Shown here: piece by piece, positions 3,555 to 22,443 of the stretch
How the letters are laid out: each line of letters starts with the position of its first letter
Position numbering within the stretch: the stretch's first letter is position 1
Virus record (IMG/VR): IMGVR_UViG_3300024264_000069
Coordinates: 1 to 42,206 of that record
DNA: 42,206 nucleotides
Direction: 5' to 3' (one strand)
DNA from: a virus
Notes under the pieces: generated by a model
Databases searched by the model: none
The model's input: only the letters and a program-made list of their open reading frames with translations
What the model was told of the DNA's origin: nothing
Made by a program: the position numbers and the translations under genes

Positions 3555-3995
3555 ATGAGCGATCTTATTACATGTAGCGGTGCGCTATTTTATACATTAG
3601 ACACAAATAGATTTCTTTTCTTGCACAGAGCGCAAGGTAAGCGAAATAATATGTGGGGATTAGTTGGCGGCACAAATGAAGGATCCGAAACTCCTTGGGA
3701 AGGCTTAAAACGAGAAATCGAAGAAGAAATAGGATTTTTGCCAGAGATCAAAAAAACACTACCTTTAGAAAGCTTTGTGTCTCCTGATAGTAGATTTCAT
3801 TTTCATACCTATCTATGTGTTATAGGAAATGAATTTATTCCTAAACTTAACATCGAACATGACGGATATGCTTGGTGTAGTTTTACTAAATGGCCAAAGC
3901 CTTTGCATCACGGATTGCGCAATACACTTCAAAGTAAGGTTAATTTAAATAAGTTAGAAACTGTATTTAAAACTATCAACTTACTTGACAATTAA
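3555..3995 (+). CDS. Nudix hydrolase
   Basis: A complete Nudix box runs from G39 to F61 and fits G-x5-E-x7-REUxEExGU exactly (G39, E45, then REIEEEIGF at 53-61). Nudix enzymes hydrolyse nucleoside diphosphates linked to another group, such as NDP-sugars, ADP-ribose or damaged dNTPs; the Glu residues bind the metal. The 146-aa length is a single-domain enzyme. The N-terminal CSGALFY and the C-terminal WCSFTKWPKPLHHGLRNTL recall the GDP-mannose hydrolase-like group, which suggests but does not prove a nucleotide-sugar substrate. It lies 8 bases after gp15 without a clear ribosome-binding site, probably on the same late transcript. Its 3' end contains the -35 box of the promoter for hldE. Confidence 0.85.
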   Translation: MSDLITCSGALFYTLDTNRFLFLHRAQGKRNNMWGLVGGTNEGSETPWEGLKREIEEEIGFLPEIKKTLPLESFVSPDSRFHFHTYLCVIGNEFIPKLNIEHDGYAWCSFTKWPKPLHHGLRNTLQSKVNLNKLETVFKTINLLDN

Positions 3996-4013
3996 CCTAA
4001 AAGATTGTATAAT
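3985..4013 (+). promoter_or_regulatory. Consensus sigma-70 promoter, probably giving a leaderless hldE mRNA
   Basis: TTGACA (3985-3990) and TATAAT (4008-4013) are both perfect matches to the bacterial consensus, with the optimal 17-bp spacer. With the usual 6-base gap after the -10 box, transcription would begin at about 4020, the A of the hldE ATG. No ribosome-binding site precedes that ATG. The arrangement differs from the NATAAATA late promoters of the structural genes and implies earlier or host-polymerase expression of the heptose operon. Confidence 0.65.
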
Positions 4014-4019
4014 ATAAAC

Positions 4020-5159
4020 ATGAAAGTTTTAGTTCTTGGCGACATAATCATCGACACATATATTTACGGTACTAGTTCACGTATTAGTCCCGAGGCTCCT
4101 GTTCCTGTTGTAACATATAAACGTGAAGTTCAAACAATTGGTGGCGCAGGACTTGTATACGAAAATCTTAAAAGTTTAGGTGTTGATGTTGAGTTAGTTG
4201 ACATTTTTGACAAAGCAAGTGTTAAAACTAGAGTAATTTGTGACGGGCATTATGTCACACGCATTGATGACGATTATCACGCAGACAGCAAACAATACCT
4301 TGATTATATTCTATCACGAGATTTTAGTGATTACGAGTATGTTATCCTAAGTGACTACAACAAAGGCACACTAGACGAATCTTTAAAAATCATCGAACAT
4401 CTAAACACGTTTGGATGCAAAGTAATTGTAGATCCTAAAGAACATGCAAATCACTACAAAGGTGCTTGGCTTGTAAAACCCAACTACAAAGAGTTCGGCG
4501 ACTTTGGATTTACTAACTGGCAAGATAATATCATTACAACCAATGCTGGCGATAATGTAGTTGCTAATATAGACAACGTAGTATATGACATCGCTGTTGA
4601 CGCAGTAGAAGTAAACGATGTCACAGGCGCTGGCGATTGTTTCCTAGCAGCATTTGTATACGGGCTTACAAAAGAATATACTTATGAAAAATGTTTACAA
4701 CTAGCAGTAAAGGGCTCTACTAAAGCAGTTACACATGTAGGCACATATACGCTTGCTGTAAGCGATTTAGAAGATCGTGTAGTGTTTACTAACGGAGTGT
4801 TTGATATACTACACACGGGTCATTTTGAGCTCCTAGCAAAGGCAAAATCGCTTGGTAATAAACTAATTGTAGGCATCAATTCAGATGCAAGTGTACAGAG
4901 ATTAAAGGGCAAAAATAGACCTATCAATAATTTAGGCAAACGTGTAAAACAATTAGAAATGCTACCGTGGGTAGATGAAGTTCATGTATTTGAACAAGAC
5001 ACACCTTACGAAATAATTAAACACATACAGCCTGATTTGATTGTTAAGGGTGGAGATTATACTGTTGAAACTGTTGTAGGACATGATTTGGCGGAAGTAT
5101 ATCTTGTGCCTACAGTAGAAGGTTATTCAACAACAGAAATTATTGAGAAAAGCAGATGA
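4020..5159 (+). CDS. hldE: Bifunctional heptose-7-phosphate kinase / heptose-1-phosphate adenylyltransferase
   Basis: A fused HldE (RfaE). The N-terminal ribokinase/PfkB domain (about residues 1-250) has LGDIIIDTYIYG, SSRISPEAPVPVV, the GGAG substrate loop, VDPKEH, the VKPNYKEF segment and the catalytic VTGAGDCFLA. The C-terminal nucleotidyltransferase domain (about 255-379) has FTNGVFDILHTGHFELLA with the HxGH motif, IVGINSDASVQRLKGKNRPI and LIVKGGDY. The kinase phosphorylates heptose-7-P at C1; after GmhB removes the 7-phosphate, the second domain adds AMP to make ADP-heptose. At 379 aa it is about 100 shorter than E. coli HldE (477), mainly in the kinase part. An upstream in-frame TTG (4005) exists, but ATG at 4020 gives the normal MKVLVLGD start. 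Its stop overlaps the hldD start (ATGA). Confidence 0.93.
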   Translation: MKVLVLGDIIIDTYIYGTSSRISPEAPVPVVTYKREVQTIGGAGLVYENLKSLGVDVELVDIFDKASVKTRVICDGHYVTRIDDDYHADSKQYLDYILSRDFSDYEYVILSDYNKGTLDESLKIIEHLNTFGCKVIVDPKEHANHYKGAWLVKPNYKEFGDFGFTNWQDNIITTNAGDNVVANIDNVVYDIAVDAVEVNDVTGAGDCFLAAFVYGLTKEYTYEKCLQLAVKGSTKAVTHVGTYTLAVSDLEDRVVFTNGVFDILHTGHFELLAKAKSLGNKLIVGINSDASVQRLKGKNRPINNLGKRVKQLEMLPWVDEVHVFEQDTPYEIIKHIQPDLIVKGGDYTVETVVGHDLAEVYLVPTVEGYSTTEIIEKSR

Positions 5160-5974
5160 AAATATTAGTTACAGGAAACCAAGGATTTATTGGTAAAAAT
5201 ATTGCAAGCTATTTGCAACAACAAGGACACGAAGTAGAAGGTTGGGAATGGGAGCCAGGTGTGCTTCCGCATACCGAAGGCTACGATTGGTGTATACACT
5301 TAGGTGCTATTAGTTCAACTACATACACAGATGTTGATCAAATATTAGAACAGAATTTTGAGTTTAGTGTTAGACTTGCACAAATATGTGAAAATTTTGG
5401 TACTAATTTACAATATGCATCCAGTGCAAGTGTATATGGACCAACAGATCATTTTACTGAAGATGGTCCGTTGTTGCCACAATCACCTTATGCTTGGTCA
5501 AAGTATTTGTTTGATAGATTTATAAATCAATACATAGATGAATTTGCAATTAAAATACAAGGATTTAGATATTTTAATGTATACGGCGAAGGCGAAGAAC
5601 ACAAAGGTGATCAAGCAAGTCCTTATACTAAATTTGCATATCAAGCTAAAGACAACGGTGTAATTAAGTTATTTGAAGATAGTAATAATTATCTTAGAGA
5701 TTTTGTATGTGTAGACGATATATGCAAGCTCCATGAAAAAATGTTTGATGTAGATCAATCAGGTATCTTTAATGTAGGCACAGGACGTCCTGTAAGTTTT
5801 GAAACAGTAGCACAATCTATTGTTAACAAGCACGGCGGTGATATTGAATACATACCAATGCCAGAGAACATAAAGTCGCAATACCAGAAATATACTTGTG
5901 CAGACTTGACTAATTTAAATAGTGTAGTAGATATGCAATGGGTAAACATAGAGGATTATATTAATGGAAAATAA
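5156..5974 (+). CDS. hldD: ADP-L-glycero-D-manno-heptose 6-epimerase
   Basis: An extended short-chain dehydrogenase/epimerase. It has the NAD(P)-binding GNQGFIG at residues 7-13, the SSASVYG serine motif near 90, the catalytic Tyr-x3-Lys in SPYAWSKYLFD, and features specific to HldD: FRYFNVYGEGEEHKGDQASP, LRDFVCVDDICK, FNVGTGRPVSFETVAQ and the C-terminal EYIPMPENI...ADLTNL. It converts ADP-D-glycero- to ADP-L-glycero-D-manno-heptose, the last step before transfer. The 272-aa length is somewhat below E. coli HldD (310). It overlaps hldE by 4 bases and the cupin gene by 11, so the operon is probably translationally coupled. A related NDP-sugar epimerase is possible but less likely given the HldD-type motifs. 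Confidence 0.88.
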   Translation: MKILVTGNQGFIGKNIASYLQQQGHEVEGWEWEPGVLPHTEGYDWCIHLGAISSTTYTDVDQILEQNFEFSVRLAQICENFGTNLQYASSASVYGPTDHFTEDGPLLPQSPYAWSKYLFDRFINQYIDEFAIKIQGFRYFNVYGEGEEHKGDQASPYTKFAYQAKDNGVIKLFEDSNNYLRDFVCVDDICKLHEKMFDVDQSGIFNVGTGRPVSFETVAQSIVNKHGGDIEYIPMPENIKSQYQKYTCADLTNLNSVVDMQWVNIEDYINGK

Positions 5975-6386
5975 TGAACCAACTAGATTAACTGGTGTTG
6001 TTCCCAAAGGATGGGGATATGAATTAATTTGGGCAACCAATGACAAATACTGTGGTAAAATTATGTTCTTTGAAAAATCAAATGCTAAGTTCAGCATGCA
6101 CTTTCATAAAGAAAAAGACGAAACTTGGTTTGTTAATACTGGAAGATTTAAAGTTAGATGGATTGATACATCCAACGCAGCACTATATGAAAAAGAACTT
6201 AAAGAAGGCGATGTATGGCACAATCCTCCGTTACAGCCTCATCAATTAATTTGCTTACAAGAAGGTTCAAGTATTACAGAAGTAAGCACTGCTGATAGTG
6301 TTGAAGACAATTATAGAGTTGCTCCTGGTGACAGTCAAAAGACACAAGTCGAACCTAATCTAAATCCCGAGAATCAAGATGGTTGA
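5964..6386 (+). CDS. Cupin, phosphomannose-isomerase type II-like
   Basis: A 140-aa single-domain cupin. It begins with KGWGYELIWATNDKYCGKI, then HFHKEKDETWFVNTGRFKVR (metal ligands His-x-His and Glu, followed by the conserved VxxG turn), then PPLQPHQLICLQEGSS with the second-motif His, and closes with ITEVSTADSVEDNYRVAPGD. This arrangement matches the cupin domain of mannose-6-phosphate isomerase/ManC proteins. It sits between hldD and gmhB with overlaps of 11 and 8 bases, so its function is probably tied to the heptose pathway. Because no gmhA is present, it may act as the sugar-phosphate isomerase (inference). It could instead be a binding protein or act on a different sugar. Confidence 0.72.
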   Translation: MENNEPTRLTGVVPKGWGYELIWATNDKYCGKIMFFEKSNAKFSMHFHKEKDETWFVNTGRFKVRWIDTSNAALYEKELKEGDVWHNPPLQPHQLICLQEGSSITEVSTADSVEDNYRVAPGDSQKTQVEPNLNPENQDG

Positions 6387-6990
6387 TATTTATTGGGGCG
6401 ATGATGTATCGAGTCCAAATTATATTGCACCTAAATGTGTAATTGGGCTTGACAGAGACGGCGTTATCAATGTTGATCGCGGAACATACACATGGAAAGG
6501 CACTGATTTTGAACCTATTGACGGTAGTTTAGAAGCAGTTGCCAAACTACGAAAGTTAGGTCATAAAATTGCAATTATTACCAATCAAGGAGGCATTGAA
6601 CACGGATTGTTTACTGAGCAAGATGTCGATGCTCTGCACACATATATGTTAGAGCTTTTGGGTAAAGCAGGATGTCCTAGCATTGATGCTATTTACTATA
6701 GTGCTAGCAGTCATAAATCTGATATGTATGCAAAGCCTAACACAGGCATGTTTAAAAGATGTCAAAAAGAATTTCCTCATATTAAATTTAATAAAGGTTA
6801 TTATGTAGGTGATAAATTAAGTGACCTAAAAGCTGCCCATAAAATAGGAGCAAAGCCTGTACTTGTGCGTACTGGATACGGACTAGAAACTGAAAAAAGT
6901 CTAAGTAAATTTTCTTATCGTGATATAAAGAAAAAGACCATCATATTTGATGATCTTAGTTCTTTTGCAGATTGGATAGAAGCACGTTAG
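6379..6990 (+). CDS. gmhB: D-glycero-D-manno-heptose-1,7-bisphosphate 7-phosphatase (HAD family)
   Basis: A HAD-superfamily phosphatase of the GmhB/histidinol-phosphatase type. Motif I is LDRDGVINVD, with nucleophile D25 and acid/base D27. Motif II is TNQGGI from T68, motif III is the Lys in AKPNTGMF, and motif IV is YYVGDKLSDLKAA. GmhB removes the 7-phosphate between the two HldE reactions. The 203-aa length fits the family (about 190). The usual zinc-binding Cys/His loop is not intact: the region YYSASSHKSDMYAKPNTGM keeps a His but has no Cys. Its TAG stop overlaps the TAA of the convergent gene (bases 6987-6990, TTAG). Last gene of the heptose operon. Confidence 0.85.
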   Translation: MVDIYWGDDVSSPNYIAPKCVIGLDRDGVINVDRGTYTWKGTDFEPIDGSLEAVAKLRKLGHKIAIITNQGGIEHGLFTEQDVDALHTYMLELLGKAGCPSIDAIYYSASSHKSDMYAKPNTGMFKRCQKEFPHIKFNKGYYVGDKLSDLKAAHKIGAKPVLVRTGYGLETEKSLSKFSYRDIKKKTIIFDDLSSFADWIEAR

Positions 6991-14773: not shown

Positions 14774-14781
14774 TATTTATC
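14774..14781 (-). promoter_or_regulatory. Late promoter for the 145-aa gene
   Basis: The minus strand reads GATAAATA 20 bases upstream of ATG 14754. It overlaps the TGA stop (14780-14782) of the carbamoyltransferase gene. Confidence 0.65.
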
Positions 14782-16579
14782 AGTTTTTTACAGTAATTAA
14801 TTTACCATACTCCGGAAGATACAAATATTCAATATCACAATTATCTAGTGTACGCACAGCATCATCTAATGTTTCTACCAACGGCTCACCGCCTAAATTA
14901 AAGCTTGTATTAAAGATAATTGGGCAACCAGTTTTTTCTTTGAATGCTTTGATAATATCATAGTAATGTGGATTTTGTTCTCTAGTAACTGTTTGTATTC
15001 TGCAAGTTCCGTCTACGTGAATGATAGCAGGGATCTTGTCTTCAATACCAGGTTGACAGTTTACAGCATACATCATTGTAGGAGAGCTTTCCATACCACG
15101 TAGGTCAAACCATTCGTGTACATCTTCTTCTAATATGCTGCCTGCAAATGGACGGAAGTATTCTCTGTGTTTTACGCTGTTAACAAAGTCCTTGCCATTT
15201 GGATCAGTTGGGTCATACATTATACTTCTGTTACCTAATGCACGTGGGCCATTTTCTGAACGTCCTTGGAATAATGTTACAATATTTCTATCAGTCATTA
15301 ATTTAACAACATCTTCTTTGGAAGCGTCTGTAACTTCTGCGTTATATGTTTGTGCAATATTATTAATATCTTCAGTTGTATAAGTGTGTATTGGGCCTAG
15401 GTACACATCTGTTGCTTGAGGTTTGACTTCTGTACTTTCTGTTGTACGATAATGCCAGATTAATGCTGCACCCATTGCTGTTCCTGCATCATTACTTACA
15501 GGCTCAACATAGATTTTAATTCCTTCGTCTTCTAATTCTTTCAAATAATAATAGTTAGCAACACAATTTAATCCGTATCCTCCACTAATAACAACATTTT
15601 TACTTCCACTTATTGATACTGCGTGTCTAATTAAATCGGCAACTGCTTGTTGGCTTTCTGTTTGTACAGCATATGCCAAATCTCTTCTATTTGATAAAAG
15701 TGTTACATCTTTAGCTTCGTGATCATCTAGTGTTTTGTAAACATTAGCGTTTACAATAGCGCCATTAGGATATCTTGGTAGTATTAAGTTTCTATTAACT
15801 GTAGGGATAGGCAAATCGTTTTCGTCAATTATATTAGGAAAAGTATCATTTTGTTTACCGTATGGAAACAATCCCATAGTTTTTCCTGCTTCGATACTAC
15901 TCCATCCGCAATACTCTGTAACAGCTTCATATGCTTTTACGATGCCGGCTTTGTCAGATATACTTAAATTAAAATATGCACCTGGTTCCCAGTCTCCTGC
16001 TTCAAAATTTTCTACATATGCATTTGCTACCATTTCTCTACAGCCCATTGTTTTATGCATAGTTTTAATTTCGGCAGGGTATGAACATTTGTAAATACTT
16101 TCTGTTTCGAAAACAGTCATATTGTCGCCTGCAATATTAATTGGAAAAAATGTTCCTGCGCCATCGACAATAACTGCAACAGCTTCTTCAAAACCACTAC
16201 GGTAAAATGCTAAACCTGCATGCATTTTATGGTGGAACATAGACATATCAATAACTTGAGGATATAAGCCATTTTCGCCTCTAGGTCCTTTTTCAATTAG
16301 TCCTATTTTTCTTGCAAATCCGCTGTATACATCTTCACCGGTGTAGTCTAATTTACCCGCAGTATCATTAAGAGTTGTTGTATGTGATATGCATAACCAA
16401 TCTAATTTATCAGTATATTCTTTAATTTTAAGCATACTTGCTAATGGCCCGCCATCGTATTTTTCTCTAGTTAGTCTTTCTTCTTCAATACTAAAGACAA
16501 TTTCTCCGTCTTTAAGTAGACAAACTCCTGCGTTATGTCCTCTAGCTATACCTGCTATCCAAACCGGGTCTTTTTTCAT
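14780..16579 (-). CDS. O-carbamoyltransferase, NodU/TobZ family
   Basis: A full-length two-domain carbamoyltransferase. The N-terminal actin-like domain has GIARGHNAGVCLLKDG and FSIEEERLTREK, then the metal-binding HHKMHAGLAFYRSGF followed by VDGAG. The C-terminal YrdC-like/carbamoyl-transfer domain has NGPRALGNRSIMYDP, REYFRPFAGSILEE, NTSFNLGGEPLVETLDDAV. Family members transfer carbamoyl from carbamoyl phosphate through carbamoyl-AMP to a sugar hydroxyl, as in NodU and tobramycin biosynthesis. I start it at ATG 16579 (599 aa) because GAGG lies 7-8 bases before it; an ATG at 16606 in the same frame has no ribosome-binding site. It follows the SGNH gene directly (1-base gap) and is the last gene of the GT9 operon, so its acceptor is probably the glycan made by GT9. 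Confidence 0.9.
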   Translation of the reverse strand: MKKDPVWIAGIARGHNAGVCLLKDGEIVFSIEEERLTREKYDGGPLASMLKIKEYTDKLDWLCISHTTTLNDTAGKLDYTGEDVYSGFARKIGLIEKGPRGENGLYPQVIDMSMFHHKMHAGLAFYRSGFEEAVAVIVDGAGTFFPINIAGDNMTVFETESIYKCSYPAEIKTMHKTMGCREMVANAYVENFEAGDWEPGAYFNLSISDKAGIVKAYEAVTEYCGWSSIEAGKTMGLFPYGKQNDTFPNIIDENDLPIPTVNRNLILPRYPNGAIVNANVYKTLDDHEAKDVTLLSNRRDLAYAVQTESQQAVADLIRHAVSISGSKNVVISGGYGLNCVANYYYLKELEDEGIKIYVEPVSNDAGTAMGAALIWHYRTTESTEVKPQATDVYLGPIHTYTTEDINNIAQTYNAEVTDASKEDVVKLMTDRNIVTLFQGRSENGPRALGNRSIMYDPTDPNGKDFVNSVKHREYFRPFAGSILEEDVHEWFDLRGMESSPTMMYAVNCQPGIEDKIPAIIHVDGTCRIQTVTREQNPHYYDIIKAFKEKTGCPIIFNTSFNLGGEPLVETLDDAVRTLDNCDIEYLYLPEYGKLITVKN

Positions 16580-16580
16580 T

Positions 16581-17447
16581 TTAGTATCCTCTGTATGTTT
16601 TGTCATAATTTTTTAATTCTAATGCTATCACATCTCCAAAATCTTGAAGATCTTCAAAACTATTCTTTACTTGGCGACATCTAGCAATCCAATCCAATTG
16701 TTCAGTAGTTAGTTTGTCGTTGTCTAAATTCAAACTTGGTTTAAGTATATTATATAACCAATCTATACCCAATTCAGGTGCCGGATGTGGATCAACCCAT
16801 TTTAATTTCTTTGGTCCTGATAACCAAGTATAAAATAAATCTACATTTTTCCAACAATATGTCCCAATAGGAGTTACCCAATTACTATTATCCCAAATTT
16901 TCTTGTAAGGTAAAAATTTGTCATTGTCCCATAAGTTTGAATGTTTAGATATTTGTTCTTGATAATTTATTGGGTCAATAATATTATCTGTACCTAACTT
17001 ATTAAATTCTCCTATAGATGTCATCTTCCATTTACACCCTGTAGATTCAACAAGTTGTATAGTTGAATAAATTGCATTTAACGATAACATTATATAAGAT
17101 TGTTCATCGAAGAATGTAGTTAACCAATTTTTGTTATACAATTGTGTGTTTGTATAACCAAATATATTTCCTTTGGTCTTCCAATTATTATCAAGATCTC
17201 GATTGTTTACATCTTCAAACAAATGGTAATCGTTTCTTAAATAATTGGACCATTGTATAACTACTGTATCTTCTGATGTAATGTTATTTTTTACAAAACA
17301 TTCAGATACTCTGTTAGCAATAGCAACATTACCTATACCAGGAACTCCCCAATTTTCAAAATAATCAAATTCCAATCCTAGAAAGTCTGCCCAGGTTGGC
17401 CAAGAATAATTAGTAAAACTACAACCAAAAGTGAATAATCTTGACAT
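16581..17447 (-). CDS. SGNH/GDSL-like hydrolase
   Basis: A 288-aa protein with SGNH hydrolase blocks in order. Block I is FTFGCSFT at 5-12, with Ser10 the likely nucleophile. NWGVPGIGN at 32-40 contains the Gly/Asn oxyanion residues. Block III-like VVIQWSNYLR is at 62-71, and WVDPHPAPELGIDWLY carries Asp219 and His221 of the likely catalytic dyad. Related proteins are esterases or acetyl-hydrolases/transferases acting on polysaccharides. It has no signal peptide, so it acts in the infected cell or on the virion. It begins directly after the GT9 stop codon and precedes the carbamoyltransferase, suggesting work on the same glycan. It could also be an acyltransferase, since the fold supports both. 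Confidence 0.72.
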   Translation of the reverse strand: MSRLFTFGCSFTNYSWPTWADFLGLEFDYFENWGVPGIGNVAIANRVSECFVKNNITSEDTVVIQWSNYLRNDYHLFEDVNNRDLDNNWKTKGNIFGYTNTQLYNKNWLTTFFDEQSYIMLSLNAIYSTIQLVESTGCKWKMTSIGEFNKLGTDNIIDPINYQEQISKHSNLWDNDKFLPYKKIWDNSNWVTPIGTYCWKNVDLFYTWLSGPKKLKWVDPHPAPELGIDWLYNILKPSLNLDNDKLTTEQLDWIARCRQVKNSFEDLQDFGDVIALELKNYDKTYRGY

Positions 17448-18404
17448 CTATTTTTTATTTTTAGTTATAGCTTTTTTTACAGATTTAATAATAACTTCTT
17501 CTACCTTTTCATTCATCTGCATAATACCTTCATTGTGTCTGTCGGAAAATTCGTCTATAGTAATTCTTATAGGACTATAAATTCTTGCTCCTTCGCCCAT
17601 GTCTAGAATATCAAATGATTTTTCGTTAGGGTAAGAAACATTTTCTTTAAATGTACTTCCTACTACTATAGTTGCAGGTATATTCAAAGAATATGCCAAA
17701 TGCTGACCTACACTGTCGCAACCTAAAAAATAATCAGCTTGGTCAATAATTGCTGTCCATGTTCTTAGGTCAACGCCTTGAGGTATTGCAACTGGTTCCG
17801 TTATTCCATGTTTTGAAAATTCTAATGCTACTTCACCCATAAAAATAATAGCATAATCTTTGGATAATTCTTTTACAAGATTAATAACAGTTGTTGCTTC
17901 AAAACTTCTTCCGCTGAAGTCTGTAATTATTCCATTTTCACTTATTACGCCACGTCCAAACGGTTGTATTACTATGGCTTTTTCTTTGCTGGTTTTATCT
18001 TTTACTTCTTTGACCACTTGTGCTGCTGAAATTTTTTCTTGCTTGCTAAGTTTTATTGTGGGTTTAGGAAGATCTCTTACACCTTTATTATTAATTTCAA
18101 TATCATATGCTTGTGATAGATTTGCTTGTTGATTATAGTATTCCCACACTCTGTATGGTTCAGGACTTACTAATTCCATGTCTTTTAATTTATCTTCAAA
18201 CAAATTTTTGTGCCATACATCATATGCTTTTGCATGCAACAATGGATGTCCTTTATAAAAATCAGTGCCGCCTTCACATACAATAATAAAATTATTGTCA
18301 GGATTTTCTTCTGCAAATTTTTCTAATGCAGGTATACTACATACTACACGACCGGCGCCGCCGTTAATAAAAAACGCTTTATTTCTTGACATATTTAATT
18401 CCAT
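17448..18404 (-). CDS. Glycosyltransferase family 9 (heptosyltransferase-like)
   Basis: A 318-aa protein resembling ADP-heptose:LPS heptosyltransferases (GT9, GT-B fold). The N-terminal FFINGGAGRVVCSIPALEKF matches the GT9 start, where Gly-rich residues follow the first strand. The middle has IVIQPFGRGV and DFSGRSFE. The C-terminal nucleotide-sugar site is FLGCDSVGQHLAYSLNIPAT followed by IVVGSTF, equivalent to the family's D-S-G-x-x-HLA-A-x-G-x-P pattern. A second start, ATG 18392 (MSRNKAFF), is equally possible. It is the first gene of a three-gene operon with its own late promoter and an upstream terminator. The ADP-heptose cassette at 4020-6990 would supply its donor. The acceptor is unknown. 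Confidence 0.8.
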   Translation of the reverse strand: MELNMSRNKAFFINGGAGRVVCSIPALEKFAEENPDNNFIIVCEGGTDFYKGHPLLHAKAYDVWHKNLFEDKLKDMELVSPEPYRVWEYYNQQANLSQAYDIEINNKGVRDLPKPTIKLSKQEKISAAQVVKEVKDKTSKEKAIVIQPFGRGVISENGIITDFSGRSFEATTVINLVKELSKDYAIIFMGEVALEFSKHGITEPVAIPQGVDLRTWTAIIDQADYFLGCDSVGQHLAYSLNIPATIVVGSTFKENVSYPNEKSFDILDMGEGARIYSPIRITIDEFSDRHNEGIMQMNEKVEEVIIKSVKKAITKNKK

Positions 18405-18423: not shown

Positions 18424-18431
18424 TATTTATT
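18424..18431 (-). promoter_or_regulatory. Late promoter for the GT9-SGNH-carbamoyltransferase operon
   Basis: The minus strand reads AATAAATA 20 bases upstream of ATG 18404. It lies just downstream of the terminator at 18466-18491, making the operon an independent late unit. Confidence 0.6.
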
Positions 18432-18465: not shown

Positions 18466-18491
18466 AAAAAAAGACGCAAAATGCGCCTTTT
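18466..18491 (-). terminator. Intrinsic terminator after the Gly/Cys-rich gene cluster
   Basis: On the minus strand AAAAGGCGCA (18491-18482) pairs with TGCGTCTTTT (18478-18469) across a 3-nt loop, with one G-T pair. The stem runs into seven consecutive T residues. It lies 22 bases after the stop of the gene at 18513 and before the GT9 promoter. The strongest terminator seen in the window. Confidence 0.85.
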
Positions 18492-18512: not shown

Positions 18513-19478
18513 TTAATCTGCGTCTGGATAACTGTCTAGTGCGTTTGAATGACTATCATTTCGATCATTGTTCTCAACCGGATTTCTAATCATCGTAATT
18601 TTATGCGGTGCTACAGTTGCAATTTTAGACATATTAAATGTTGCACCAGAACCTGCAGAATTTGTTGTGTAATAAACACCTGTATACGATCCAGCTAAAG
18701 GATGATAATCATAACAGTGTTTAGCTGAACTTGTAAACTTTACAATTCCTCCTGCATCATTAATTTCTGACACAGTTAACAAAATATCTGCTGCACTGGC
18801 ACCGTTTTTAAATGCAGGATCAGATATTAATATACCGTCACCGACACTATATCCTGTTCCAGCTGCTGATGCAGTTATAATCCAAGATGCTCCACAATGC
18901 TCCGGCAGTTCTCTCAAATACCTTTTATACTTAGCTACCAAGTTATACAAACTTGTTGGCATATCTTCGCTTAAACGATGATCTGCATTATGTAAAGCTT
19001 TGTTTCTTGTAGTAAGAAATTCTGCCCAAGTCTCGATTGGCGGATGCCACGGAAATGGCTCAACAAACCTTTCAGCTGCAAAATCATACACGATTTCTTC
19101 TTTTTCATATACGTGATCTGGCAACATTGGGTCATTTCTAACATAGGGTAGTGCTGAACCTGGAATATCTTCGCTTGAAGTTGGCATTGCTTCGACATCA
19201 AATCTTCCGTATTGGGGGAATAAAGAACACATAAGTGGATTAACATTGCAATCCACTTCTACAGCATAATCGTTGTCTGGCTGGTTGTTAAATTCGCCAT
19301 CTTGCCAAATAGATTCTTCAATAACTCTGCCAGTTACTTTTCCTGTAGTCCTGTCAACTACAATATATTTTTTATCAGGACCTTCATAAGTAATTGTTGC
19401 TGTAGAGTTATTGTTGTTAGTTTGCGAATACTGATCATCAGTTACGTTGTAAGTAAACTCTTTTGTAATTGTTGCCAT
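18513..19478 (-). CDS. Putative tail-fibre assembly chaperone-like protein A (321 aa)
   Basis: Paralogue of the 215-aa protein at 21034-21681. Shared parts are the N-terminus (TKEFTYNVTDDQYS; TATITYEGPDKKYIVVDRTTG) and a C-terminal region IETWAEFLTTRNKALHNADH...KYKRYLRELPE. The latter fits the W...RN..L...D...Y(R/K)xxLRxLP pattern of phage tail-fibre assembly chaperone-type proteins. A beta-module (about residues 200-288, with GTGYSVGDGILI) has been inserted after that motif and is absent from the paralogue. It is the last gene of the Gly/Cys-rich cluster and lies 13 bases from the nearest Gly/Cys gene. The chaperone role is inferred from the motif and the alternating gene order. Confidence 0.55.
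   Translation of the reverse strand: MATITKEFTYNVTDDQYSQTNNNNSTATITYEGPDKKYIVVDRTTGKVTGRVIEESIWQDGEFNNQPDNDYAVEVDCNVNPLMCSLFPQYGRFDVEAMPTSSEDIPGSALPYVRNDPMLPDHVYEKEEIVYDFAAERFVEPFPWHPPIETWAEFLTTRNKALHNADHRLSEDMPTSLYNLVAKYKRYLRELPEHCGASWIITASAAGTGYSVGDGILISDPAFKNGASAADILLTVSEINDAGGIVKFTSSAKHCYDYHPLAGSYTGVYYTTNSAGSGATFNMSKIATVAPHKITMIRNPVENNDRNDSHSNALDSYPDAD
18615..18881 (-). repeat. Beta-module copy inserted in protein A
   Basis: Residues about 200-288 of the 321-aa protein (GTGYSVGDGILISD, AADILLTVSEI, then LAGSYTGVYYTTNSAGSGAT) match the module repeated in the 2131-aa and 1832-aa proteins. The paralogue at 21034-21681 lacks it, so it looks like an insertion. Confidence 0.6.
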
Positions 19479-19490
19479 TATTATTTCCTA

Positions 19491-20264
19491 TTAGTAAAAG
19501 AGGACATATACCATGCCTCCGGCTCCGTGTTCGCCTGCGCAGCATTGATTATCATATTTATTTGCAGAAAGCCCGCCGCCACCTGGGAACATTCCACAAC
19601 CGCAATCAGCATGCCATGATCTACAATTGCCTGGACCAGGTCGGAACCCGCCTGCTGTAAATGGAGCATTTGCTGTTACTGAATATGCATTACCGAAGCA
19701 ATATTGATTGGGGTGTATACCACCATTTGTTCCACCTATGTGTAAATCTGGAGTTGCGTTGCTGCTTGAACAGCCGCTTCGTCCTCCGCAACAAAAACAC
19801 ATTGAACAACAGTCATAACAGCTGCCATGGAACTGACACCTGCGACATACTGATACAGACATTCCTCCGCACAAGCAATATTTCCATGATGGGCTTCCGC
19901 CTCCGCCGTTGCTACAGATATAAGTCGAACAACCTTCTGCGCCGTTTCCTTCACTAGGATCTACACATCTGTTGCTGCCGCCAGCACAAATTGTAAATGT
20001 ATCTCCTGGGTTTACACTTGTTGATTTAATTGCATACCCGCCAGATCCAGCGCCGCCACCTTGTTGACAACAACATACTCCGCCGCCGCTTCCGCCGCCG
20101 CTCCACATTTCAAAAACTGCATAACTTTTTCCTGCAGGCACTGTCCATAAGAGGCAACAGCCCCCGTTGGCTCTACCCCTGTCAGTATGAGTAACTGTGA
20201 ATTCTCCAGGAACAATTGCTGTTCCTTCTTCATATCCCCATAAATAATCTCTTAAATTTGCCAT
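19491..20264 (-). CDS. Glycine/cysteine-rich putative adhesin 3 (257 aa)
   Basis: One of three paralogues. It has the short N-terminus MANLRDYLWGYEEG, the shared core GGCCLLWTVPAGKSYAVFEM followed by WSGGGSGGGVCCC, then YAIKSTSVNPGDTFTICAGG and long Gly-rich loops. It has 26 Cys by my count, many adjacent (CCC, CC) or as CxC/CxxC, including a dense cluster near SCYDCCSMCFCCGG. It ends in a beta-strand after a final Gly-rich turn (GAGGMVYVLFY). No signal peptide, despite the Cys. Gly-rich stretches recall the polyglycine loops of T4-like gp38-type tip adhesins. The Cys content suggests metal clusters or post-lysis disulphides. AAGGAA ribosome-binding site. Confidence 0.65.
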   Translation of the reverse strand: MANLRDYLWGYEEGTAIVPGEFTVTHTDRGRANGGCCLLWTVPAGKSYAVFEMWSGGGSGGGVCCCQQGGGAGSGGYAIKSTSVNPGDTFTICAGGSNRCVDPSEGNGAEGCSTYICSNGGGGSPSWKYCLCGGMSVSVCRRCQFHGSCYDCCSMCFCCGGRSGCSSSNATPDLHIGGTNGGIHPNQYCFGNAYSVTANAPFTAGGFRPGPGNCRSWHADCGCGMFPGGGGLSANKYDNQCCAGEHGAGGMVYVLFY

Positions 20265-20277
20265 TTATAATCTTTCC

Positions 20278-21027
20278 TTACGAAGCTACACTATAATAAA
20301 TTGATATTAATCCGCCTGCGCCTGGAGCTCCGCACACCACGCTTGTGCTGCTTGCTACTGCGCTTGCGCCTCCTCCGCCGGGCCACTGTGCATTACCGCC
20401 GACACCAACACCGCTGTCGTGAGTACAATAAGACATTGTTCCTCGTGCGCCGCCTGGCGTGTATGGGGCTGATGGCATGTAGCCTTGTGCATTTGCTCCA
20501 CACATTGGACTTCCTTTTGCTGTACCGTTTACACCGCACATTCCAAAAGTTCCCGTCCATGATCCACATTGATATTGGGTGCAAAATTGACAAGTACAGT
20601 TAATCTGGAAGTAGCATCTGCCGTAGCCTTTGCCTCCGCCTGATGCACAAACTTGCACTGCGCCTCCGTTAACATTTACATAACTTGGAAATCCTACACA
20701 TCCTTGGCAATCTTGTTGACTGCATCCTGTTGTACCTGCTGCACACATAGTAAACTGTTCACCAGCTGTTAAGCCTGTCATAATTTTTCTAGCATATGAT
20801 CCTGAACCGCCAGGCCATCCTGATTTACAACAACAGTGTCCAGCTCCGCCGCCTCCGCCGCCCCACAATTCTACACCCAGCCAAGTTACGCCTGCTGGTA
20901 TTGTAAACAAACAACATTGGCCACCATTATTTTGCGTTGTCTTGTTAGTGTTGAAAATATGGAGTTCGGTTATGGTTGCTGCTCCGCCTCCTTCGCCTAT
21001 TCCTAATAATGTTCTTAAGCCTGCCAT
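20278..21027 (-). CDS. Glycine/cysteine-rich putative adhesin 2 (249 aa)
   Basis: Paralogue of the genes at 19491 and 21694. It begins MAGLRTLLGIGEGGG and has the core GGQCCLFTIPAGVTWLGVEL followed by WGGGGGGAGHCCC, then YARKIMTGLTAGEQFTMCAA. It has 19 Cys by my count, with a cluster at RCYFQINCTCQFCTQYQCG. The C-terminus has QWPGGGGASAV and a closing strand GGLISIYYSV. The conserved scaffold with highly different Gly/Cys loops suggests divergence for different receptors. It sits next to another adhesin (13-base gap) and shares the operon promoter at 22798. Confidence 0.65.
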   Translation of the reverse strand: MAGLRTLLGIGEGGGAATITELHIFNTNKTTQNNGGQCCLFTIPAGVTWLGVELWGGGGGGAGHCCCKSGWPGGSGSYARKIMTGLTAGEQFTMCAAGTTGCSQQDCQGCVGFPSYVNVNGGAVQVCASGGGKGYGRCYFQINCTCQFCTQYQCGSWTGTFGMCGVNGTAKGSPMCGANAQGYMPSAPYTPGGARGTMSYCTHDSGVGVGGNAQWPGGGGASAVASSTSVVCGAPGAGGLISIYYSVAS

Positions 21028-21033
21028 TTTATA

Positions 21034-21681
21034 TTAATCCTCTGGTGTCGCTGGCATGTTTACTTTCCATGCTTCAATTTCATCCGCATCACCGTAGTTA
21101 AAAGTTGCTGGTAAATCTCTTAGTGCCTGTCTATAGGTTATCCAAGGTTGTTTAATAGCGTCTGGCTGATCTGGTGATATCTTGCCGTCTGTTGCTGTTA
21201 GTGCGCCGTTTCTAGCATCAATTATCTGATCCCAGGTAACATGAGGTTCTACCAAACTTCCAAGATCCCACGAACTTCCGTCGTGTACTAATTCTTGCAT
21301 ATTGTATGTTTGACCTAATGTAGCAACACTGTTGTACACACATGTAGATCCATCTGGTAAATTATCTGTTGTTTCAGTGACATCTGCGTATGTTACTTCA
21401 TATTCTCTTATTATAGAAATAACAATAGGGTCATCTGCTGCTACAACTTCAACTTTACGATGATTTATCGGAGTTGGAACATCTGCTCCGTCTTCGACAG
21501 AAGTTAGCGGTGGTTGAATATCGCTAAAAAGTCCCGTAGTAGAATCTACAAAAACCCAAATTCTGTCTGGGCCTGTGTAAGTTGCTGTTGCTGTTCTAGC
21601 TAATGAAGTACTTGTACTATACAGAACATCTGCAATGTTGTAAGTAAAAGTTTCTGTTGTTGTTGTAATTGGTGTTGGCAT
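21034..21681 (-). CDS. Putative tail-fibre assembly chaperone-like protein B (215 aa)
   Basis: Paralogue of protein A. The N-terminus TETFTYNIADVLYSTSTS and ATYTGPDRIWVFVDSTTG match A. The C-terminal part has VTWDQIIDARNGALTATDGK and PWITYRQALRDLPATFN. The YRQALRDLP motif is typical of short phage tail-fibre assembly chaperone or tail proteins. The acidic tail ends NMPATPED. It lies between Gly/Cys adhesins 1 and 2, so one partner may serve each adhesin group. Whether it is a chaperone or a virion subunit cannot be decided from sequence alone. GAGG ribosome-binding site. Confidence 0.6.
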   Translation of the reverse strand: MPTPITTTTETFTYNIADVLYSTSTSLARTATATYTGPDRIWVFVDSTTGLFSDIQPPLTSVEDGADVPTPINHRKVEVVAADDPIVISIIREYEVTYADVTETTDNLPDGSTCVYNSVATLGQTYNMQELVHDGSSWDLGSLVEPHVTWDQIIDARNGALTATDGKISPDQPDAIKQPWITYRQALRDLPATFNYGDADEIEAWKVNMPATPED

Positions 21682-21693
21682 TCTTAAATCCTC

Positions 21694-22443
21694 TTATTGG
21701 TATGATACTTTAACTAGGCCTTGGGAGCCATGCTGACCATGACAGTAGCCGCCGCCACAGCTTCTAGCTGATGAGCCACCGCCTGCGGGCCAAGATGGAA
21801 CTGTACACTTATGATAAGGGCCACTGCCGCTTGGTTCTTTAGCACAAAACGATGATGTTTTACTTTCTGATCCAAAACCGCCTGCAGTCATCATGTGTAT
21901 ATCGGTATTACAGTGACAAGTAACAATACTCGTTCCACCTGTTCCATCCATCACAATGTCTCCTAAACCAGTTCCTGATAACAGTCCCCAACAGCATATA
22001 TATCCATAACAAAATCCGCCTCTTGTCATCTGTGAGCAGCCGCCTGTGCCGCCGACAGCACAACCTATTGTTGTGTTTGCTGTAATATCAAAGACATAAC
22101 TAGGATTTGCTCTAGGTTGTATTCCACAACATCCTCCACAGCCAGTTGAACCAGCTGCACAGATTCTGTACTGACAGCCTGCTGCTGTTGAAATTGTTTT
22201 GAGAGCATACGACCCGCCTGTGGCCATAGTTCCTGCTCGTTCACAACATCTTGCTCCGGCGCCGCCTCCGCCTGCACCCCACATCTCAAATGATATGCTG
22301 GTAAAACCTGCAGGTACTGTAAACAAACAGCAACAGCCGCCGGCGCCGGCACCGGTGTCGGTATTTCTAACATAAAATACCGTGTTAGGATTACCAATTG
22401 GTTGTGGCGATAAGTCTGATAAAAGTGAACGTAATGATGCCAT
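21694..22443 (-). CDS. Glycine/cysteine-rich putative adhesin 1 (249 aa)
   Basis: First of the three Gly/Cys paralogues in the transcript. It begins MASLRSLLSDLSPQPIGNPN and has the core GGCCCLFTVPAGFTSISFEM followed by WGAGGGGAGARCC, then YALKTISTAAGCQYRICAAG. It has 21 Cys by my count, with FCYGYICCWG and TCHCNTDIH. The C-terminus has SWPAGGGSSARSCGGG and a closing strand LVKVSY. Alignment with the other two by eye keeps the pattern CC(L/C)-FT(V/I)PAG-E(M/L)W-Gly-run-CC at the same place, which supports a shared fold. It follows the 108-aa fibre gene by only 3 bases. Confidence 0.65.
   Translation of the reverse strand: MASLRSLLSDLSPQPIGNPNTVFYVRNTDTGAGAGGCCCLFTVPAGFTSISFEMWGAGGGGAGARCCERAGTMATGGSYALKTISTAAGCQYRICAAGSTGCGGCCGIQPRANPSYVFDITANTTIGCAVGGTGGCSQMTRGGFCYGYICCWGLLSGTGLGDIVMDGTGGTSIVTCHCNTDIHMMTAGGFGSESKTSSFCAKEPSGSGPYHKCTVPSWPAGGGSSARSCGGGYCHGQHGSQGLVKVSYQ

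Follow-up and report, generated by a model that had tools for sequence, protein, structure and literature searches.

The virus record IMGVR_UViG_3300024264_000069 (42,206 bases, referred to here in full as the window) derives from a marine, T4-like myovirus whose genes include those for neck, sheath stabiliser and baseplate wedge, and it encodes on its minus strand a GT9-fold glycosyltransferase, an SGNH-fold hydrolase and a NodU/TobZ-type O-carbamoyltransferase. The question raised by this locus is which molecule such a set of enzymes would modify, and for whose benefit. The reading that we favor, with a probability of roughly one half, is that the phage encodes a late-acting system for glycosylating its own tail adhesins, which are rich in Gly and Cys, and that the operon provides the transfer and tailoring steps; the modification would most likely consist of heptose and a carbamoyl group. 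Late in infection, the GT9-fold enzyme would put a sugar on three Gly/Cys-rich adhesins encoded by adjoining genes, and this sugar would most likely be a heptose activated by an HldE/GmhB/HldD cassette present elsewhere in the window. A hydroxyl of the sugar would next be carbamoylated by the carbamoyltransferase, and an acyl group may be trimmed or transferred by the SGNH enzyme, which is optional. The modified adhesins could have an altered host binding or shield the virion. From the gene content and associations described below we infer which donor and acceptor are used, in what order the steps follow and what benefit they bring.

The three open reading frames are intact, are arranged head to tail, and adjoin or overlap each other; they lie at the coordinates given in an earlier note on this DNA. 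The GT9 gene (17448..18404; 318 residues, phrog_8954, T4-GC 302) abuts the SGNH gene (16581..17447; 288 residues), which overlaps the carbamoyltransferase gene (14780..16606; 608 residues, phrog_1601, T4-GC 303) by 26 bp. GT9 translation probably begins at 18392, at an in-frame ATG, rather than at 18404, because close relatives start at the matching methionine, which is preceded by a stretch resembling a ribosome-binding site. The heptamer ATAAATA is the core of T4 late promoters and is found at 18424..18430 on the minus strand, 26 nt ahead of the ATG annotated for GT9. Of 30 window genes, 7 have this heptamer in the 60 nt upstream of them, against an expectation of about 0.35; the copy near GT9 is shared by S-CAM1 and the closest relatives, and another sits before the gene that follows the carbamoyltransferase. 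The notion that the operon has its own late promoter is thus supported. As to the insulation by a terminator that the same note describes, an intrinsic-terminator-like hairpin does lie between the upstream adhesin block and the GT9 unit (18469..18491, minus strand), but in a hairpin scan such structures were no more common in this region than in shuffled sequence.

The carbamoyltransferase is clearly of the NodU/TobZ type as judged by its profile matches. It matches both Carbam_trans_C (3e-59, 199.8 bits) and Carbam_trans_N (9e-23, 81.6 bits) above the Pfam cut-offs, and among solved proteins 7xb6 is the best match at 5e-55, with GdmN and TobZ also recovered (7xb6, 3ven and 7vyj; E 5e-55 to 2e-39). 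The motifs HHKMH, GGYGLN, NDAGT and ENGPRALGNRS are invariant or nearly so among 52 relatives, and the metal and carbamoyl-adenylate site is conserved (H125/H126/H129, D148, G342-G-Y-G-L-N, D373, G453-P-R-A-L-G-N-R). In these two domains and motifs the window protein resembles NodU, TobZ and GdmN; it differs from them in belonging to a clade, phrog_1601, that is tied to GT9. A carbamoyltransferase gene adjoins GT9 in all 56 IMG/VR loci that were found with GT9; together with the reference phages these loci represent about 40 lineages at 85% GT9 identity. Similarly, in a sample of 34 IMG/VR records selected by gp15, the two genes occur in the identical 14 records. The GT9-carbamoyltransferase pairing is, therefore, near-obligate, and the two genes are almost inseparable. 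In two loci (L027 and L042), GT9 is present in two copies that flank the carbamoyltransferase gene on both sides.

Besides the carbamoyltransferase, the tightest association of GT9 is with Gly/Cys-rich adhesin genes, and in cultured phages this association is tighter than that with the heptose genes. The genes flanking the operon are tail-fibre and virion structural genes, and three of them, all on the minus strand, encode adhesin-like proteins of phrog_4205 that consist of 20-23% Gly and 8-10% Cys and are the proposed acceptors. The first (19491..20264; 21% Gly, 10% Cys) and the second (20278..21027) carry the Gly_rich_2 domain (PF21722), and the third is found at 21694..22443. Two genes on the same strand encode related proteins resembling tail-fibre assembly chaperones, one at 18513..19478 with a marginal PF16778 match only (phrog_9740) and one at 21034..21681 with a PF16778 match (phrog_4912). 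Among GT9 loci of at least 15 kb (n = 40), 35 have Gly/Cys-rich open reading frames near GT9, compared to none of 29 control phage loci, and all five cultured GT9 phages have them as well. There are nearly always two or three, usually three, and they lie just upstream of GT9. Across 19 complete Kyanoviridae genomes, phrog_4205 is present in 5/5 genomes with GT9 and in 0/14 genomes without it, a distribution with a chance of 1/11628 if the genomes were independent, the 14 having been picked for a carbamoyltransferase or hldE homologue and not at random. In G068 and G056, Gly/Cys-rich genes are present that the phrog_4205 model misses, and a tblastn search with one of the window Gly/Cys proteins gave no match in GenBank phages. 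GT9 divergence correlates with that of the neighboring chaperone-like gene (phrog_9740) at r = 0.89, compared to r = 0.55 for Lrg across the operon, a contrast that partly reflects genome distance. Of the ideas put forward in the earlier note, virion glycosylation has been strengthened most by these associations, with the adhesins as putative acceptors.

This genomic setting bears on two explanations that place the sugar elsewhere. The main rival is that the carbamoylated sugar is built or capped on host lipopolysaccharide (LPS) or capsule, thereby excluding competing phages or releasing progeny. LPS genes of marine myophages are usually read as serving such remodeling of the host surface, and pelagiphage and cyanophage papers take genes of this type to modify the O-chain or to synthesize LPS (PMC7029224; PMC3037559). 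Genes of the hldE type are also found in cyanophages within LPS-like clusters, together with other glycosyltransferases. Nevertheless, the GT9 operon sits inside a late tail-fibre block and has a late motif, which is late for exclusion, and the GT9-carbamoyltransferase pair tracks the adhesin family and not LPS clusters. In P-TIM68, S-T4, S-SM2 and Sf-CH8, hldE is part of a different, LPS-like cluster, and all four phages are without GT9. Heptose is, moreover, absent from the LPS of marine Synechococcus (PMC4515613), and ordinary LPS core synthesis is therefore disfavored in the cultured relatives. Host-surface remodeling seems possible but unlikely. Much less probable, and indeed barely credible, is a hypermodification in which the sugar and carbamoyl group are added to phage DNA bases or nucleotides. 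Phage glycosyltransferases can act on DNA (PMC12619734) and the carbamoyltransferase is an enzyme of the small-molecule type, but the operon is located in the late tail-fibre block, the part of the window genes that was searched includes no base-modification enzyme, and the closest folds are those of protein or LPS transferases.

If the adhesins receive a heptose, the operon should travel with genes for its activation, and mostly it does. All 19 GT9-bearing cyanophage records in GenBank have hldE, mostly within the same gene run, and only 8 other T4-like cyanophage records carry it, of roughly 420 or more (T4-like cyanophage records counted by a gp13 match number at least 439). All 14 records of the gp15-selected sample with GT9 and the carbamoyltransferase have hldE too; GT9 and the carbamoyltransferase are both missing from G065-G067, the long relatives that have no cassette. 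In G068 the cassette is relocated and the operon is present, and in 350-kb phages homologues of hldE and hldD lie far from GT9. In cultured cyanophages, GT9 and the carbamoyltransferase gene (T4-GC 302 and 303) are followed by genes for an adenylyltransferase, a kinase, a HAD phosphatase, a cupin and an epimerase, which form one run in P-SSM2, S-CAM1 and S-CAM3, whereas extra genes intervene in S-SSM7 and Sf-FS3. The window holds the same orthologues as this cyanophage "LPS" run (T4-GC 302-308), but its cassette is on the opposite strand about 8 kb from the operon, it has the additional SGNH gene, and it has GmhB instead of an EcbF/BcbF-type HAD protein. The co-occurrence of T4-GC 304, 305, 307 and 308 is already noted in the passages seen of Sullivan et al. 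2010 (PMC3037559), and those passages do not contain the link of 302 and 303 to Gly/Cys adhesins. No paper on cyanophage heptose together with a carbamoyltransferase was found in the literature. The records in these counts are not phylogenetically independent, and the link between operon and heptose cassette is strong but not obligate. The co-occurrence proposed earlier as a check came out mostly favorable, with exceptions on both sides that are considered below.

Some further observations concern these records. Weak nucleotidyltransferase matches (E ~1e-8) recur in many of these phages; they look like the core cytidylyltransferase T4-GC190 and were rejected as hldE. In L225, hldE-hldD is followed by an inverted hldD-hldE, which is probably an assembly palindrome. 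G066 (L252-L254), which is without GT9, also lacks the cassette and the Lrg gene beside gp15, and a 683-residue open reading frame and very long open reading frames are found there instead. As regards the host, psbA is present in the five cultured cyanophages and was found in none of the 32 GT9-positive IMG/VR records searched, most of them fragments; these records give no support to a cyanobacterium as the host of the window phage.

The GT9 protein itself was described in the earlier note as heptosyltransferase-like, and this holds for its fold and its donor side. Searches of PDB sequences with the GT9 and SGNH profiles gave chance matches only, and a fold search was therefore used. The AlphaFold model of GT9 has a predicted local distance difference test (pLDDT) score of 90, and its top PDB matches are GT9 proteins only, namely 3tov from V. 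parvula, WaaC, WaaF and TibC (E 2e-11 to 1e-7); plant NDH-PSI subunits of the same fold are also among the structural matches. The donor-side motif G228-C-D-S-x-G-Q-H235 is invariant or nearly so, with D230, S231 and H235 invariant, and when the GT9 profile is compared by hhalign with WaaC of E. coli, in an alignment that covers the donor domain only, this D-[ST]-x-x-x-H motif aligns with WaaC D261/H266. Pfam GT9 (PF01075) gives no match to the window protein and matches 30/46 relatives, at best with 1.9e-5. Based on its modeled structure the protein is a GT9-fold transferase. It is not filed as a heptosyltransferase, because the catalytic Asp is replaced by an invariant Arg, and the claim that all three enzymes have intact motifs consequently fails, in GT9 at Arg19 and in SGNH at the block III Asn, which is not conserved. 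The GT9 proteins of cultured cyanophages (L002-L006) have an additional low-complexity C-terminal tail of 50-100 residues, and the window protein does not.

This substitution is the first of several findings that weigh against adhesin heptosylation. The position of Asp13 in WaaC and WaaF (GDxxxxxPAL; GDVLHTLPAL) is Arg19 in all aligned GT9 members that cover it, an equivalence based on the ungapped correspondence between GRVxCSIPAL and GDVLHTLPAL. A distant Vibrio-phage homologue of GT9 has neither a carbamoyltransferase nor phrog_4205 beside its gene, and of the 40 GT9 loci that span 15 kb or more, 5 are without Gly/Cys genes. Adjacency alone, furthermore, does not distinguish an acceptor from a mere neighbor. 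Two metagenomic lineages, G008 (76 kb) and G035 (122 kb), both fragments, keep GT9, SGNH and the carbamoyltransferase with no hldE in the record; the cassette site is empty in both, and Lrg directly abuts nudix-gp15. Finally, GmhA (PF13580) was found in none of 38 phage records, including five complete GT9-positive cyanophages.

Some of these findings would be accommodated if adhesin glycosylation drew on another donor than ADP-heptose, with the GT9-like enzyme taking a host nucleotide sugar and the cassette serving something else. The invariant Arg, the operon without cassette in G008 and G035, the four cyanophage genomes that keep hldE without GT9, and the absence of GmhA from the phages are all consistent with this idea. 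The presence of hldE in every GT9-positive cyanophage record and in all GT9-positive records of the gp15-selected sample argues against it, as do the contiguity of cassette and operon in most cultured relatives and the WaaC-type donor-side Asp/His motif, and we regard another donor as rather doubtful. The Arg at the Asp13 position in all members, along with the plant NDH-PSI subunits of the same fold, could also indicate that the GT9-like protein is a binding or scaffold protein that lacks a base, and that the carbamoyltransferase acts on another substrate. Across sequences that are about 50% identical, however, the cleft-type residues are strongly conserved (G15-G16-x-G18-R19, E82-P-Y, Q147-P-x-G, D162, R166-S, G228-C-D-S-x-G-Q-H, P278-I-R), as expected for an enzyme active site, making a non-catalytic role improbable.

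Glycosylation of the adhesins with heptose further depends on its supply. The window was originally proposed to hold supply, transfer and tailoring together; HldE/GmhB/HldD, GT9 and the carbamoyltransferase are indeed present, but the supply of ADP-heptose is incomplete, because no GmhA homologue occurs in the 38 phage records. The cassette lies on the plus strand and comprises an HldE-like kinase and adenylyltransferase identified by profile matches (4005..5159), an HldD-like ADP-heptose 6-epimerase (5156..5974; TIGR02197, 1.6e-69, below the cut-off), a cupin (5964..6386) and a GmhB-like HAD phosphatase (6379..6990; PRK08942, 9e-42). The HldE, GmhB and HldD proteins match these families best and remain below the equivalog cut-offs. 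At 384 residues compared to a model of 475 positions, the HldE-like protein has a shortened kinase part, but the GAGD and substrate motifs are kept. A Nudix hydrolase gene (3555..3995, plus strand) adjoins gp15 with or without the cassette. Among 15 picocyanobacterial host genomes, 12 have no GmhA match, none has one over the cut-off and only two have a clear sub-threshold match.

The cupin is a candidate replacement for GmhA. Its metal-site motif is complete, it is similar to D-lyxose/mannose-P ketol-isomerases, and every fully covered cassette of the gp15-selected sample contains it. Of its members, 23/26 match D-lyxose isomerase models, at best with 3e-4, and the PDB entry 2y0o is matched at 4e-6; oxalate decarboxylases outscore the D-lyxose isomerase models. 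It may, as a hypothesis suggested by these matches, take the place of GmhA. The PHROG label "cysteine dioxygenase" was not adopted, because models of ketol-isomerases and of cupins in general fit this protein. More speculatively, and with little likelihood as a whole, the system could be self-contained, with the virus making its own activated heptose via the cupin, transferring it by the Asp-less GT9 onto the adhesins, possibly onto cysteine, and then carbamoylating it. The cyanophage "phosphoheptose isomerase" of GenBank and PHROG (T4-GC 306; L002:18027-18371, L006:15916-16239) is a HAD capsule-type phosphatase near EcbF/BcbF (TIGR01689) and not GmhA, and is thus a misannotation.

In its logic, the proposed modification of phage adhesins appears comparable to adhesin heptosylation by TibC and AAH on TibA and AIDA-I. 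TibC heptosylates adhesins, and its Asp110, the counterpart of WaaC Asp13, is the catalytic base (PMC4358343). Both systems have a GT-B fold of the GT9 type, genes for a heptose-type donor nearby, and a transferase gene beside that of a surface adhesin, which in the phage is the proposed acceptor. They differ in that the phage enzyme has an invariant Arg in place of this Asp, is encoded by a late gene and is accompanied by an O-carbamoyltransferase, and in that the phage adhesin is a Gly/Cys-rich tail protein. WaaC and WaaF share the fold and the donor-side motif with the phage protein, which in turn lacks their catalytic Asp, a Pfam GT9 match and a location in an LPS cluster. Mycobacteriophages with glycosylated virions (Freeman et al. 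2023, as cited in PMC12619734) likewise encode a transferase proposed to modify virion proteins; the enzymes, sugar and target are different, and there the modification has been demonstrated, whereas here it is inferred. If the phage adhesins are indeed modified in this manner, many "LPS genes" of large marine myophages would decorate the phage's host-binding proteins and not the host surface, and hypothetical proteins of well-studied phages such as P-SSM2 and S-CAM1 would acquire a function. Cultured virus-host pairs would then allow a direct test of adhesin glycosylation. The same reading would also point to a GT9 subfamily whose active site is unusual and to a possible non-GmhA route to heptose phosphate.

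The SGNH hydrolase is an optional accessory of the GT9-carbamoyltransferase pair. Its gene lies between the other two in only part of the 56 IMG/VR loci and is absent from most GT9 loci, and a tblastn search with the window protein gave no match in GenBank phages. The assignment follows from the predicted fold: the model (pLDDT 88) matches rhamnogalacturonan acetylesterase and TesA (E 8e-5 to 1e-3, probability 0.99-1.0). Ser10 of block I and His221 of block V are conserved, the latter in a D219-P-H221 arrangement in place of DxxH; the variable Asn of block III is Asn68, and the nearby Arg71 is invariant. Distant SGNH relatives in other phages (L070-L146) mostly have a nucleotidyltransferase gene at a distance of about 2 kb, often together with an epimerase gene, and one of these loci (L109) also carries a B12-radical-SAM gene, making it another possible glycan cluster.

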